A DNA stretch of 64,000 nucleotides, from positions 62,001 to 126,000 of the forward strand of contig NZ_JAIPUS010000006.1 of NCBI RefSeq assembly GCF_020055675.1, given 5' to 3'. Position 1 is the first letter of the stretch. Each line of letters opens with the position of its first letter. Positions 27,446 to 35,278 of this stretch are shown one piece after another. The stretch is from Marivita sp. Lineage in GTDB: Bacteria; Pseudomonadota; Alphaproteobacteria; Rhodobacterales; Rhodobacteraceae. The translations under genes were made by a program, and so were the position numbers. Under the pieces are notes generated by a model, which was not told the origin of the DNA, did not search any database, and was given only the letters and a program-made list of their open reading frames with translations.

Positions 27446-28843
27446 ATGTCGACTCAAAAACTTTATGCCGGTGCCAAGCTGCGCGAGATCCGCACCCGAC
27501 TGGGCATGACCCAGCGCGATTTCTCGACCAAGATGGGCGTGTCCCTGCCCTATCTGAACCAGATGGAAAACAACAAGCGCCCGCTGTCCACCACGGTGGT
27601 GCTGGCCCTTGCGCAGGAATTCGGAATCGATGTGACCGAATTGGGCCAGGGGGATGCCGAGCGCATGATTTCAGACATGCGCGAGGCGCTGGCCGATCCG
27701 ATCTTCTCGGACGCCACCCCCCCGATTGCCGATCTTCGCCTGACCGCATCGAACGCGCCGGGATTGGCGCGGGCCTTTCTCGAACTGCACAGCGCCTACA
27801 GGCAGACCCATGAACGGCTCGCGTCGCTGGACGAGGCCCTGGGGCGCGAGGGCGCGCAGTTGCAGCCCTCACCCTGGGAAGAGGTGCGCGATTTCTTTCA
27901 CTATTGCGACAACTACATCGACGCCGTGGACCGCGCCGCCGAGCGGGTGGCCACCAAGCTGACCGGATCGGACCGCGTGCGCGCCGCCATTCGCGGGCTC
28001 GAACACGAAGGGCTGCATGTCCGTTTCGCCAACATGCCCGAGCTGCGCCGCTTTGACGAATTACGGCAGGAAGTGACCGTGTCGTCGCTGGCCGCGCCCG
28101 AAACCCAGACTTTCCAGATGATGCTGCAACTGGCGCTGGCACGTCATGGCAAGCTGCTGGATGCAACGCTCGATCTGGGCCGGTTCCAGTCCGACGCGGC
28201 CCGCGACATCGCGCGGCTGGGTCTGGCCAATTATTTCGCCGGGGCCGCGGTGATGCCCTACGGGCAATTCCTGCACAGCGCTCATGAAACCCGCCACGAC
28301 CTGGAATTGATGGCACGGCGGTTCGGGGCGTCGATCGAACAGGTGGCGCACCGGCTGTCGACCCTGCAACGCCCCGGGGCCAAGGGGATCCCGTTCTTTT
28401 TCGTTCGCGTCGACCAGGCCGGCACGATCACCAAGCGGCACAGCGCCACGCGCTTGCAATTTGCCCGCTTCGGCGGGGCCTGTCCGCTGTGGAACGTGCA
28501 CCGCGCCTTCGAGACTCCGGGCCGGTTCCTGCGGCAATTGGCCGAAACGCCGGATGGGGTGCGCTATATCTCTCTCGCACGGGATGTCTCCAAGACCGGG
28601 GGGCATTTCGGCGCGCCCGTGCGGCGCTACGCGATCGCGCTTGGCTGCGAGGTGAAACATGCCGGCGCGCTGGTCTACGCCGACGGGCTGGACCTCGCCC
28701 GCGATGGCGCCTTCGAGCCGATCGGGATTTCCTGCCGGATTTGTGAACGCTCGAATTGTCATCAAAGATCGGTCCCGCCGCTGGAGCGCAAGCTGACGAT
28801 CCAGACGCACCGGCGGGGCATCCTGCCCTACGAGTTGATTTGA
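27446..28843 (+). CDS. pccR: Short-chain fatty acyl-CoA regulator (PccR/ScfR family)
   Basis: A 465-residue transcription factor. An XRE-type helix-turn-helix (residues ~5-60: LREIRTRLGMTQRDFSTKMG, then SLPYLNQMENNKRPLS) is followed by an IrrE/ImmA-like central region (AAVMPYGQFLHSAHETRHDL) and a C-terminal domain with CRICERSNCHQRSVPPLERK, matching the conserved cysteine motif of the ScfR family. Known relatives sense propionyl-CoA or acetyl-CoA state and act on pcc or glyoxylate genes. The nearby pccB and TTTGCAAA sites make PccR the best assignment. Confidence 0.9.
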   Translation: MSTQKLYAGAKLREIRTRLGMTQRDFSTKMGVSLPYLNQMENNKRPLSTTVVLALAQEFGIDVTELGQGDAERMISDMREALADPIFSDATPPIADLRLTASNAPGLARAFLELHSAYRQTHERLASLDEALGREGAQLQPSPWEEVRDFFHYCDNYIDAVDRAAERVATKLTGSDRVRAAIRGLEHEGLHVRFANMPELRRFDELRQEVTVSSLAAPETQTFQMMLQLALARHGKLLDATLDLGRFQSDAARDIARLGLANYFAGAAVMPYGQFLHSAHETRHDLELMARRFGASIEQVAHRLSTLQRPGAKGIPFFFVRVDQAGTITKRHSATRLQFARFGGACPLWNVHRAFETPGRFLRQLAETPDGVRYISLARDVSKTGGHFGAPVRRYAIALGCEVKHAGALVYADGLDLARDGAFEPIGISCRICERSNCHQRSVPPLERKLTIQTHRRGILPYELI

Positions 28844-32198: not shown

Positions 32199-32789
32199 TC
32201 ACCCGCGCGTGACCACGAACCGGCAGGCGCCGTGCCCGGTGACGGCGCAGCAGGCGGTTTCCGTGCAACGGCAGTCGGGCGCGACAAGGGTTTGGTAGAG
32301 CTGGGTGAAAACCGCGGAATGCCAATGGCAGAGCGGTATCGGGCTGTGTTCGCCGCGCACGATGGGGTTCTGCGCAATTTCAAACACCCAGGGCGTGACG
32401 ACCCGGAAATGGCCGGAACCTGCAAAGGTCCAGGCGTGTTTGGCAATTGCCCTGGACAGGGCGCGCGCCGCCAAACCCGCCGGCAGCGCCCTGAGGGCGC
32501 GCTGTGCAAGGACGGGGATGCGATGCGCGAGGATATACCGGGCCGTCGCGTGCCCGGCCTCGGACGCCAACAGCGGCGCCATTTCAGGCGCGTCACGGCG
32601 CAAGGCCTGATGCAGGCGCGCCGCTTGGCCCTCGGGGATCATCTGCGACCCGTCCGGCACCATGTCCACGCCCGCATCGGCCAGCATCCGCGCGACTTGC
32701 GCCTGCCCACCGATGCCTTCGATCTGCGGCAGAAGCTGCAAGATGGCGTTGGGACCGATCACGCCTTCGGTCTGCACCCCGTCAGACAT
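32199..32789 (-). CDS. bchJ: BchJ, bacteriochlorophyll 4-vinyl reductase-type protein
   Basis: A 196-residue BchJ protein with a V4R domain in its C-terminal half. After [20 protein letters not shown] come [35 protein letters not shown] and a Cys-rich segment ([20 protein letters not shown]) that fits the V4R metal-binding pattern. BchJ affects reduction of the 8-vinyl group of chlorophyll precursors; its direct catalytic role is debated. The start overlaps the bchE stop by 8 bases, so the genes are coupled and share the bchE promoter. Confidence 0.9.
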
Positions 32790-34446
32790 CTTCCATTTGC
32801 TGCGTTCCGCCACCGCAGGCCTTTACCTCGGCCCCGTTTGGCATCTTGAAGCTTTGTGTCCGATCGGCCGACCGCTCTTTCATTTGCGCCTTCACCGCTT
32901 CGCGCCGTTCGGCCGCCTTGGCGGCCTTGTCAGCGCTGGCCTCCCAATCCTCCATCTGCGCCTCGGCGATGGTCCGGGTCTCGTCGAAGTGGAAATCGAG
33001 GTTGTTCTTCGATTGCGGCCCGGTATAGCCGACCTTGCCCAGATCATAGAAGGTGCGCGCAAAGCCCGCTTTCAGGAAGGCCTTGAGACAGCCCAGCAGG
33101 TAGCGCCGCCGGAACCCGGTGCCGCGCCACGGGTAATGGAACAGCGCCTTGCGCATGTAGAAGCGACGGTAATTCTTCATCACGCCGTCCAGCAATTCGC
33201 CCCGCTCCATCGCGGCCGGCTTCATGATCGGCGTGACAAAGTTGTAGCGCGAGAAGTCGAAGACCTCGACCTTGTCCTTCAAGTCCTGGAACAGCGGTGT
33301 AAAGGGCCACGGCGTATACATCGCCCAGTTCGCCAGATCCGGCTGCCAGTCCCACGCCATCTGGAAGGTCTCTTCCAGCGTTTCGGCGGTCTCATTGTCC
33401 AGACCCACGATGAATTGCGCCTCGACAAGGATATCCGCCTCGCGCAACAGGCGCACCGCTTCCTTGTTCTCGGCGACGGTGGTTTCCTTGTTGAACTGGT
33501 CCAGCTTCATCTGCGCCGCCGCTTCGGTGCCCAGTGACACATGTACCAGCCCCGCCTTGCGGTAGAACTTGAGCAGATCGCGGTCGCGGTAGATGTCGGT
33601 CACGCGGGTGTTGATGCCCCATTTGACCTTGTCGGGCAGGCCGCGGTCGATCAGTTCCTGGCAGAAGGCGACGAATTTCTTCTTGTTGATCGACGGTTCC
33701 TCGTCGGCAAGGATGAAGAAGCCGACGCCGTGATTTTCGACCAGGTCCTCGATCTCGTCCACCACGTCCTTGGGGTCGCGCACGCGGTAATCGCGCCAGA
33801 ACTTCCACTGCGAACAGAAGGAACAGGTGAACGGACAGCCGCGTGCAAGGTTGGGGATCGCGACGCGCGTGTTCAGCGGGATGTAGATGTATTTCGACCA
33901 TTCCAGAACGGTCCAGTCCGGCTTGATCTTGGTCAGGTCCTTGACCGTGCTCGCCGCCGGGGTCGCGACGATCCGGTCACCGTCCTGGAATGCCAGACCC
34001 TTGATCTTGTGCTTGTCGGCAGGCCAGCGCCCGTCCTCGATGGCGAGCATCAGCTCGGTGCAGATCTCCTCGCCCTCGCCGCGCACGATGACGTCGACCC
34101 AGGGCGCCTCGGACAGGACCTGCTTGTACATGAAGGTGGCATGCACGCCGCCCAGCATCCGCACCGCGTCGGGCACTACGTCCTTGGCGACCTTGAGCAC
34201 ATCCTCGGCCCGGTAGATCGACGGCGTGATCGCAGTGACACCGACCACATCGGGCTGAATGTCTTCCATTTGCTTCGCCAGATCGGCATCCGAGAGATTG
34301 TCGGTCATCGCATCGACAAAATGGATGTCATCGAATCCGGCCTGCCGCAGGTGGCCCGACAGGTAGGCGACCCAGGCCGGTGGCCAGGTGCCCGCGATCT
34401 CTGCGCCGCCGGAGCGGTAATTCGGGTGGACAAACAAGATGCGCAT
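32782..34446 (-). CDS. bchE: BchE, anaerobic Mg-protoporphyrin IX monomethyl ester cyclase
   Basis: Oxygen-independent enzyme that forms ring E of bacteriochlorophyll. At 554 residues it has an N-terminal cobalamin-binding-like domain ([31 protein letters not shown]) and a radical SAM domain with the CPFTCSFC cluster motif (CxxxCxxC) for the 4Fe-4S centre. A C-terminal basic/Ala tail ([20 protein letters not shown]) follows. Needing SAM, B12 and anoxic conditions, it is usually induced at low oxygen, which fits the FNR-like box and two PpsR-type boxes upstream. Confidence 0.96.
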
Positions 34447-34463
34447 GACGGGTCTCCCTGATG

Positions 34464-34481
34464 TGTCACTTCAAGTTGACA
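34464..34481. promoter_or_regulatory. PpsR/CrtJ box 1 at bchE
   Basis: A perfect TGT-N12-ACA palindrome frame (TGTCACTTCAAGTTGACA), 18-35 bases upstream of the bchE start codon. PpsR (CrtJ) represses photosynthesis genes under air through paired sites of this form. Confidence 0.75.
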
Positions 34482-34488
34482 TATTGAT

Positions 34489-34506
34489 TGTCCATTTTGA
34501 TTGACA
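34489..34506. promoter_or_regulatory. PpsR/CrtJ box 2 at bchE
   Basis: A second perfect TGT-N12-ACA (TGTCCATTTTGATTGACA). It starts 7 bases after box 1 ends, close to the ~8-bp spacing known for cooperative PpsR/CrtJ binding. It overlaps the FNR-like box. Confidence 0.75.
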
Positions 34507-34514
34507 CAGATCAA
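34501..34514. promoter_or_regulatory. FNR-like box at bchE
   Basis: TTGAC-ACAG-ATCAA differs from the FNR consensus TTGAT-N4-ATCAA at one base. Its centre is ~61 bases upstream of the bchE ATG. The first six bases are shared with PpsR box 2, so the activator and repressor could exclude each other. Confidence 0.72.
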
Positions 34515-34585
34515 ACCGCAGTGACCTCTTTTCGGCGGTGTTGGGTGTGCTAGCCTGCGCCTGATCTGGAGAAAGGAAATATGGA

Positions 34586-35278
34586 ATGAATATCATTTGG
34601 CTGGGCCACGCGGGATTCCGCATCGAGATTGGTGATCAGGTGCTGCTGATCGACCCGTGGCTGAACGGCAATCCGATGATGGAAGGGCAGGATCATGGCG
34701 CCGCCGTTGCGGGTGCGACGCATATCCTCGTGACACATGGGCATTTCGACCACACCAACGGCGTCGCGGAATTGTCCAGAAACACCGGCGCGCCCCTGTC
34801 AGGGATCGTCGAGCTGGCCGGGCGGCTGCACGCCGATGGCGCGGTCGAGGGACATGCCTTCAACAAGGGCGGGACGATCACGCTGGGCAATGTGGCGGTG
34901 ACGCTGGTGCCTGCCTCGCACTCATCAACAATGCCTGTGGACGGCCGCAGCGCTTATATGGGCATGGAAACCGGCTTTGTCATTCGCGGCGAAGGCCGCA
35001 CGATCTATGTCTCGGGCGACACCTCGATCATGGCCGACATGGACTGGATCGGGGACCTTTACAAACCCGATATCGGCATTCTTTCAGCGGGGGGGTACTA
35101 TACCATGGATATGGCCGGGGTCGCCTATGCGGCAAAGCGCTATTTCAACTTCAAGACGCTGGTTCCCTGTCACTACCGCACCTTCCCGGCACTCGAACAA
35201 TCCGCCGAAGGGCTGATCCGCGCTCTGCCCGATGTGGACGTGATCGAACCACAAGTGATGCAGCCGATCGCGCTCTGA
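34586..35278 (+). CDS. UPF0173-type metal-dependent hydrolase (metallo-beta-lactamase fold)
   Basis: A 230-residue MBL-fold hydrolase of the UPF0173/YtkL type. The zinc motif is VTHGHFDHTNG, other ligands lie in VPASHSS and VSGDTSI, and the final His in VPCHYRTFP. The start MNIIWLGHAGFRIE is typical; AAAGGAAA lies upstream. The substrate is unknown. It is divergent from bchE (139-bp gap holding the PpsR and FNR sites) and convergent with the sulfhydrylase gene. Confidence 0.9.
   Translation: MNIIWLGHAGFRIEIGDQVLLIDPWLNGNPMMEGQDHGAAVAGATHILVTHGHFDHTNGVAELSRNTGAPLSGIVELAGRLHADGAVEGHAFNKGGTITLGNVAVTLVPASHSSTMPVDGRSAYMGMETGFVIRGEGRTIYVSGDTSIMADMDWIGDLYKPDIGILSAGGYYTMDMAGVAYAAKRYFNFKTLVPCHYRTFPALEQSAEGLIRALPDVDVIEPQVMQPIAL

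Follow-up and report, generated by a model that had tools for sequence, protein, structure and literature searches.

One step of bacteriochlorophyll synthesis is served by two unrelated enzymes, the oxygen-requiring AcsF and the oxygen-sensitive BchE. The bchE locus described here raises the question of what could tell such an organism when the second enzyme should be made. We analyzed a window of 64,000 nucleotides located on contig C12 in the 3.6-Mb genome of a Rhodobacteraceae bacterium of the Marivita type. We propose that the bchEJ control region is probably a compact FnrL/PpsR operator, where FnrL would act as a class II activator at low oxygen and PpsR would exclude both FnrL and the polymerase. 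The control region itself is real, conserved and mostly explained.

Predicted binding sites and genes at the bchE locus

An earlier reading of this DNA, made from the letters alone, had placed two perfect TGT-N12-ACA boxes and an overlapping FNR-like box in front of bchE. Both TGT-N12-ACA boxes are exact and lie where that reading had put them (34464-34481 and 34489-34506, with a gap of 7 bp at 34482-34488). The FNR box TTGACACAGATCAA (34501-34514) is likewise exact, and six of its bases, 34501-34506, are common with the second PpsR box. The 139-bp promoter region attributed to a bacteriochlorophyll gene corresponds to positions 34447-34585, between two start codons and before bchE (TIGR02026). 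The features of the locus are as follows.

32199..32813, minus strand: bchJ, 4-vinyl reductase family (TIGR02019 189 bits, cut-off 74), with a 32-bp overlap with the end of bchE
32782..34446, minus strand: bchE (TIGR02026 817 bits, cut-off 481), with Pfam B12-binding and Radical_SAM domains and a CxxxCxxC motif at residue 204
34464..34481, minus strand: proximal PpsR box TGTCAACTTGAAGTGACA, exact, predicted to span -15 to +3
34466, minus strand: predicted transcription start of bchEJ, placed 7 bases after the -10-like element, which puts the FNR centre at exactly -41.5
34473..34478, minus strand: predicted -10 element CAACTT, with the conserved A and T and a TG (34480-34481) set one base upstream
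34489..34506, minus strand: distal PpsR box TGTCAATCAAAATGGACA, exact, predicted to span -40 to -23, with 34501-34506 shared with the FNR box
34501..34514, minus strand: FNR box, TTGATCTGTGTCAA on the bchE strand, exact match, centre at 34507.5, predicted to lie at -41.5 from the transcription start
34586..35278, plus strand: gene of a metallo-beta-lactamase-fold hydrolase (PRK00685 family; NF001911 212 bits), divergent to bchE

Read on the bchE strand, the region thus presents the FNR box, the distal PpsR box that overlaps it by six bases, the 7-bp gap, the proximal PpsR box, a purine-rich stretch for ribosome binding and the start codon. Operators of PpsR/CrtJ are TGT-N12-ACA palindromes, often in two copies, and two exact copies stand here 7 bp apart; the box of the FNR regulon, TTGAY-N4-RTCAA, is also matched exactly. 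The boxes are predicted, overlapping sites for the oxygen-sensing activator FnrL and the pigment-gene repressor PpsR.

The product of bchE is the oxygen-sensitive (anaerobic) Mg-protoporphyrin IX monomethyl ester cyclase. A bchJ match is found downstream of bchE in all 76 named loci that we compared, and bchJ is probably the second gene of a bchEJ operon. The divergent hydrolase gene is not thought to take part in the mechanism. Another contig, C8, holds bchF, a ppaA/aerR-like gene, ppsR, bchG, bchC, crtD, crtA and acsF. The wider neighbourhood of bchE also includes a regulator of the ScfR/RamB type with a short-chain fatty acyl-CoA regulator domain (window positions 27446-28843).

Rarity of the box pair

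How often such boxes are met by chance had been overestimated, since the sequence-only reading counted one TGT-N12-ACA box per 4 kb and dinucleotide shuffles give 7.04 per 64 kb, that is about one per 9 kb. Single boxes are not in excess: the window has 10 of them against the 7.04 expected, and 19 of 100 shuffles reach 10. The claim that the pair goes beyond chance holds, as a pair with exactly this 7-bp gap is found a single time in the 3.6 Mb of the genome, and a reversed-pattern control has none. When the gap was allowed to vary from 4 to 14 bp, four pairs were found in the whole genome and again none in the reversed-pattern control. The other three are all on contig C8, over the beginning of bchG immediately behind ppsR (gap of 6), before bchC (gap of 8) and before crtD (gap of 6), the crtD-side pair overlapping the mechanically called start of a divergent frame. 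The pair is rare and regulon-specific in this genome. The 6-bp-gap pair directly after ppsR straddles the bchG start codon itself (L102:2924-2965; G000:C8:106819-106860), which suggests that bchG may be under PpsR control.

The strict FNR pattern is matched 27 times in the genome and once in the control. Contig C8 has none of these matches; a looser one, TTGATCCACTTCAA, is seen there at C8:127945. Since C8 is the site of the three other pairs, bchE is the only one of the four pair-bearing places to have an FNR box. Within the window, FNR-like boxes with at most one mismatch are about as frequent as expected (6 versus 5.48), and the one in front of bchE is the only exact one. As only the bchE pair has an FNR box, and as the contig that carries acsF and the three other pairs is without a strict one, a testable rule emerges for how a phototroph living in air could decide when to make an oxygen-sensitive enzyme.

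Regulator genes

Absence of ppsR and fnrL from the genome had been named as a fatal observation for the proposal; both genes are present. The FnrL protein (L106) scores 459 bits against NF045989 (cut-off 300) and displays the N-terminal cysteines CHDC...CARC and an ETVSR recognition helix. The genome has 15 Crp-helix matches, 10 of them above the cut-off, and among the ten proteins examined only L106 has the FNR-type cysteine set together with E-x-x-S-R. In L107 and L110 the helix reads E-V-V-S-R but the FnrL-type cysteines are lacking, and L112 and L113 look like proteins of the GntR and DeoR types, not Crp.

PpsR, encoded in the same genome as bchE, reaches 474 bits against TIGR02040 (cut-off 275). 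Its gene is preceded by a PpaA/AerR-like gene for a B12-binding protein, with a B12-binding score of 31.8, just below the Pfam cut-off of 32.1, and with no match to an NCBIfam model at the threshold used. A single short BLUF-domain protein is also encoded, in a 156-aa frame (L210; G000:C9:244182-244448); a full AppA antirepressor is longer than this. Counted from a later start codon, PpsR has cysteines at positions 259 and 430, 171 residues apart, the second one near the DNA-binding end. Cysteine 259 aligns to a cysteine of the solved PpsR of Rhodobacter sphaeroides. The cysteines of the CrtJ redox pair, C249 and C420, are likewise 171 residues apart (PMC5362033).

Conservation among relatives

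We took the best 80 of 579 confirmed bchE loci and 20 more from a search of 61 genomes, and the resulting 100 loci, less 6 identical promoter duplicates, gave 94 distinct bchE promoters. Conservation of the boxes, on which the earlier proposal had been made to depend, was found in the relatives examined: in this sample of the best 80 of 579 plus 20, the FNR box is present in 88 of 94 promoters, and 86 of these 88 also have one or both PpsR boxes in register. The strict FNR box lies 62-103 bases before the start codon in the 88, and at 66-70 in 71 of them (best 80 of 579 plus 20). The six promoters without it are L066, L067, L075 and L076, of Sphingomonadales type or labelled Alphaproteobacteria, and the distant BchE-like L100 and L101.

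The two PpsR boxes are kept differently. Among the 88 FNR-bearing promoters (best 80 of 579 plus 20), 21 have both boxes, 47 the proximal one only, 18 the distal one only and 2 neither. The distal box is thus intact in 39 and not in 49, and the proximal one is in register in 68, with a gap of 7 bp in 57, of 6 in 7 and of 8 in 4. We also used a second sample with one genome per genus (248 genomes, bchE in 48). A strict FNR box is present in 44 of the 47 loci with upstream sequence, L207 being the one locus that has no such sequence, and at least one PpsR box accompanies it in 42 of the 44. The 48 loci divide into 9 with both boxes, 15 with the distal only, 18 with the proximal only, 2 with neither, 3 without a strict FNR box and 1 without upstream sequence. 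At L200 and L203, a PpsR box is found along with a mismatched FNR-like box. At L143 (G234:C62), bchE is above the family cut-off and neither an FNR nor a PpsR box is found in the 300 bases before the gene.

The distal box that overlaps the FNR box is present at 24 of the 48 genus-sampled bchE genes. Written as one 26-base pattern, the composite of FNR and distal boxes occurs 49 times in the 248 genomes, with no control match in the table. Twenty-four of the 49 are before bchE; the 25 elsewhere include copies in front of a bchE that has decayed and of a bchC-like gene, and one on the opposite strand of a bchE promoter region. At the decayed gene (L180:1501-1821; G282:C26), only residues 1-83 are matched and the frame is broken, so that the operator outlives the gene. 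At the bchC-like frame (L170 near 1501; G236:C44:13669-13694), the FNR box overlaps a PpsR pair with an 8-bp gap. A sequence resembling TTGAT-N3-TGTCAARAAAC, which recurs in the family and lies near 1501 in L165, L172 and L192, stands beside a frame that may encode polyphosphate kinase 2 and is unrelated to bchE.

The upstream neighbour of bchE varies among the 76 named loci (the divergent hydrolase in 5, ppsR in 25, other genes in 46). The boxes stay while this neighbour changes, which argues that they belong to bchE. The double-box form is seen in 16 of the 51 named loci without ppsR upstream versus none of the 25 with ppsR (Fisher p 8e-4), a difference confounded with ancestry; among the 51, the flank of L079 is too short for a verdict.

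Promoter anatomy and predicted start

Aligned on the FNR box, the 88 promoters (best 80 of 579 plus 20) display a second conserved pattern, an A at column 37 and a T at column 41. The pattern is also found without the proximal PpsR box: in the 20 such loci of the best 80 of 579 plus 20, the A (position 2) is present in 20 and the T (position 6) in 16, and in the genus sample both are present in 14 of 17 loci lacking that box. Class II promoters dependent on CRP/FNR proteins have the activator box centred near -41.5. If the conserved A and T at 34473-34478 belong to a -10 element, the FNR box would be centred at -41.5, which is the class II place.

A scan for consensus sigma-70 promoters gave none on the bchE strand and one match on the opposite strand (34567-34596). 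This absence is compatible with an activator-dependent promoter and is no proof of one. We also considered, and rejected, the possibility that the distal ACA belongs to a TTGACA hexamer at -35: in the 20 loci without the proximal box (best 80 of 579 plus 20), the position-2 A of a -10 element located 15-18 bases downstream (alignment columns 42-45) is found in only 0, 3, 0 and 2 of 20. As for direct mapping, a search of the open-access literature gave no bchE transcription start, including in the available part of PMC6199135.

Proposed mechanism and alternative explanations

We propose that FnrL, active when oxygen is scarce, would bind the FNR box and, being centred at -41.5, would act as a class II activator that recruits RNA polymerase. 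PpsR, bound to its two boxes with their 7-bp gap, would cover both the -35/FNR and the -10/start regions and so shut the promoter. It would exclude the polymerase and also, via the six shared bases, FnrL, half of whose site is concerned. The result would be an AND-NOT gate that allows bchE expression only under low oxygen and with PpsR off the promoter. From the anatomy of the promoter we infer where transcription starts, that activation is of class II and that PpsR occludes FnrL; which signal releases PpsR is likewise an inference.

A direct competition between FnrL and PpsR had been predicted from the overlap. It is plausible on this ground, but it is not universal: 49 of the 88 FNR-bearing promoters (best 80 of 579 plus 20) do not have an intact overlapping box, nor does the locus presumed to be that of R. 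sphaeroides. Competition via shared bases is hence no general requirement and, as the FNR box stays where the overlapping box is not intact, the overlap is not needed by every member.

One could assume, at the extreme, that the boxes match such short and degenerate motifs by chance. A single TGT-N12-ACA is indeed a common find (10 in the window for 7.04 expected), but the pair is rare in the genome and zero in the control and its register is conserved, so that we rejected this idea, whose probability is negligible. It is also very improbable that the boxes serve the divergent hydrolase gene. The 139-bp region is common to both genes, but the hydrolase is divergent in only 5 of the 76 named loci, and elsewhere the boxes persist at a nearly fixed distance from bchE; this candidate was rejected too. 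More weight must be given to the hypothesis that the overlap is incidental, with repression exerted chiefly at the proximal box, which covers the -10 region, so that the two proteins need not compete. As the FNR half-site GTCAA resembles the PpsR half-site TGTCAA, a distal PpsR-like box would arise easily. Supporting this idea, 47 of the 88 promoters (best 80 of 579 plus 20) have the FNR and proximal boxes only, as does the presumed R. sphaeroides locus, and on the tree at least 21 changes of state are counted for the distal box and at least 13 for the proximal one. The FNR-overlapping distal box is repeatedly lost or gained. On the other hand, 18 of the 88 have the distal box only and just 2 have neither (Fisher p 3e-6; best 80 of 579 plus 20), and this class is also scarce in the genus sample (2 of 44, p 5e-4). 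Pairs on the tree for the loss of one box against the keeping of the other lean the same way, 2.8 opposite versus 0.1 same of 8, which are too few to test. Promoters thus behave as if at least one PpsR box were needed, a tendency strong in the raw counts and with too few pairs on the tree. Moreover, the distal ACA lies outside the FNR box and is yet kept in 43 of the 88 promoters, other offsets from 14 to 34 having ACA in 0-3 of 88 each (best 80 of 579 plus 20). The shared T goes with an intact distal ACA in these 88 promoters (Fisher p 7e-5; best 80 of 579 plus 20); on the tree, 9 independent pairs, with an average of 1.9 in agreement and 0.5 in disagreement, are too few to decide. Altogether, we regard an incidental overlap as rather unlikely.

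Two further alternatives concern the proteins. Another member of the CRP/FNR family, CrpK- or Dnr-like, could be the main user of the FNR box. The genome has 15 Crp-helix matches (10 over the cut-off), L107 and L110 have E-V-V-S-R without the FnrL cysteines, and CrpK activates bchE in R. sphaeroides via the same bases (PMC4263372). Nevertheless, only L106 combines FNR-type cysteines with E-x-x-S-R, far above the FnrL cut-off, and L112 and L113 look GntR- and DeoR-type, which makes this alternative improbable. The other one is that FnrL alone gives the oxygen signal and PpsR reports light, through antirepressors of the PpaA/AerR or LOV/BLUF types, in a gate that would read 'low oxygen AND dark'. 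In Dinoroseobacter shibae, PpsR represses in the light and a blue-light LOV protein is the antirepressor (PMC10890935), and our genome has the PpaA/AerR-like B12-binding gene before ppsR and one short BLUF protein. Against it, PpsR keeps two cysteines with the 171-residue spacing of the CrtJ redox pair, and FnrL-dependent activation of bch genes is reported in D. shibae (PMC5398030). We consider a light signal quite possible without favouring it, and the earlier statement that PpsR blocks under air is uncertain for this organism. As it concerns only the signal that releases PpsR, this alternative is compatible with the FnrL/PpsR operator proposed above.

A broader scenario can be drawn, which we put forward as a speculation with little chance of being entirely right. 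The PpsR half-site TGTCAA would double as an FNR half-site, and a TTGAY eight bases upstream would be enough to make a mutually exclusive switch. Marine Rhodobacteraceae with bchEJ outside the photosynthesis cluster may in this way have given the cyclase a hard-wired AND-NOT gate that would be lacking in the cluster, acsF included. One other genome has this composite in front of a bchC-like gene. The region also offers a 51-bp model of base sharing between an activator and a repressor; promoters with both boxes, with the distal one alone and with the proximal one alone are natural variants that can be compared.

Comparison with known systems

The closest parallel can be drawn with R. sphaeroides, where FnrL and PpsR both bind the orthologous promoter in vivo (PMC2908626, PMC4344238, PMC4263372), in agreement with the dual control predicted by the sequence-only reading. 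An FnrL ChIP-chip analysis gave a site before bchEJGP, TTGACatgcATCAA (PMC2908626), and changing the T at -57 removes about 90% of the FnrL-driven lacZ activity of bchE with induced FnrL (PMC4263372). PpsR ChIP-seq at bchEJ gave two motifs, one of them TGTCAACTGAAATGGACACA, with an expression entry of -9.60 for the comparison with the ppsR deletion (PMC4344238). Our locus L136 contains the published FNR sequence, whose TCAA has its T at -57, as well as the two PpsR motifs, the second about 0.5 kb upstream, and we take it to be R. sphaeroides for this reason. In R. sphaeroides bchE (RSP_0281), the mutation-tested FNR site is at -67 from the start codon, as compared with -68 here, and a PpsR box, one of the ChIP-seq motifs, stands in the same register as our proximal box. 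The difference is that the FNR half-site there is ATCAA without PpsR overlap, whereas a second box lies here 7 bp away with six bases in the FNR site. In Rhodobacter-related strains bchE is also inside the photosynthesis cluster (PMC6052148), while here it is on a different contig from the cluster.

The effect of FnrL on bchE differs between published data sets, which are inconsistent. In global expression data for an R. sphaeroides fnrL mutant, bchE is unchanged or goes opposite to activation, and only lacZ fusions showed activation (PMC4263372). Elsewhere bchE is listed as FnrL-activated in R. capsulatus and FnrL-repressed in R. sphaeroides, and the available part of this R. capsulatus FnrL study names no direct FnrL site at bchE (PMC4634722).

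For the box pair, the model is R. capsulatus bchC, with two cooperatively bound CrtJ boxes 8 bp apart over the -35 and -10 regions (PMC5362033, PMC6199135). The 7-bp gap resembles that of this pair (PMC6199135) and agrees with the bchC-type tandem, whose gap is about 8 bp, in line with the cooperative spacing invoked by the sequence-only reading. The bchC gene of our own genome has a pair with the 8-bp gap of its R. capsulatus counterpart. The CrtJ palindromes of R. capsulatus bchC, at -47 to -30 and -21 to -4 (PMC5362033), are placed much as the two boxes here, 6-7 bp further upstream than the positions predicted for these. Unlike bchE here, no FNR box is mentioned for R. capsulatus bchC in the available parts of these papers, and the bchC of our genome is on contig C8, without a strict FNR box. 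At R. capsulatus bchEJGP, a CrtJ ChIP-seq peak with the CrtJ consensus is seen at bchE in aerobic and photosynthetic cells (PMC5362033), but the CrtJ motifs in this and similar promoters are described as 45 to 500 bp apart (PMC6199135).

In the marine roseobacter D. shibae, the bchF promoter has its -10 and -35 elements covered by PpsR boxes, which recalls the present arrangement; the differences are four predicted boxes between bchF and ppaA, a light-linked repression and, in the available part of the report, no mention of an FNR overlap (PMC10890935). PpsR is described there as a light-linked repressor, and the paper reports an absence of oxygen-dependent control of the cluster, although a study that it cites reports that FnrL activates bch genes in D. 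shibae (PMC5398030). A D. shibae bchE insertion still makes bacteriochlorophyll and accumulates MPE, whereas the acsF insertion strain is yellow and contains MPE alone (PMC10890935). These phenotypes fit BchE as a secondary enzyme in air.

Double control of bchE is thus already known from FnrL and PpsR binding and the FNR-site mutation in R. sphaeroides, and from the CrtJ peak in R. capsulatus. In the available parts of the open-access literature searched, we found no published description of an FNR/PpsR overlap at bchE. What is new in comparison with these systems is no new type of control but a compact variant, in which a second PpsR box is set inside the FNR site and which is kept in many marine relatives.
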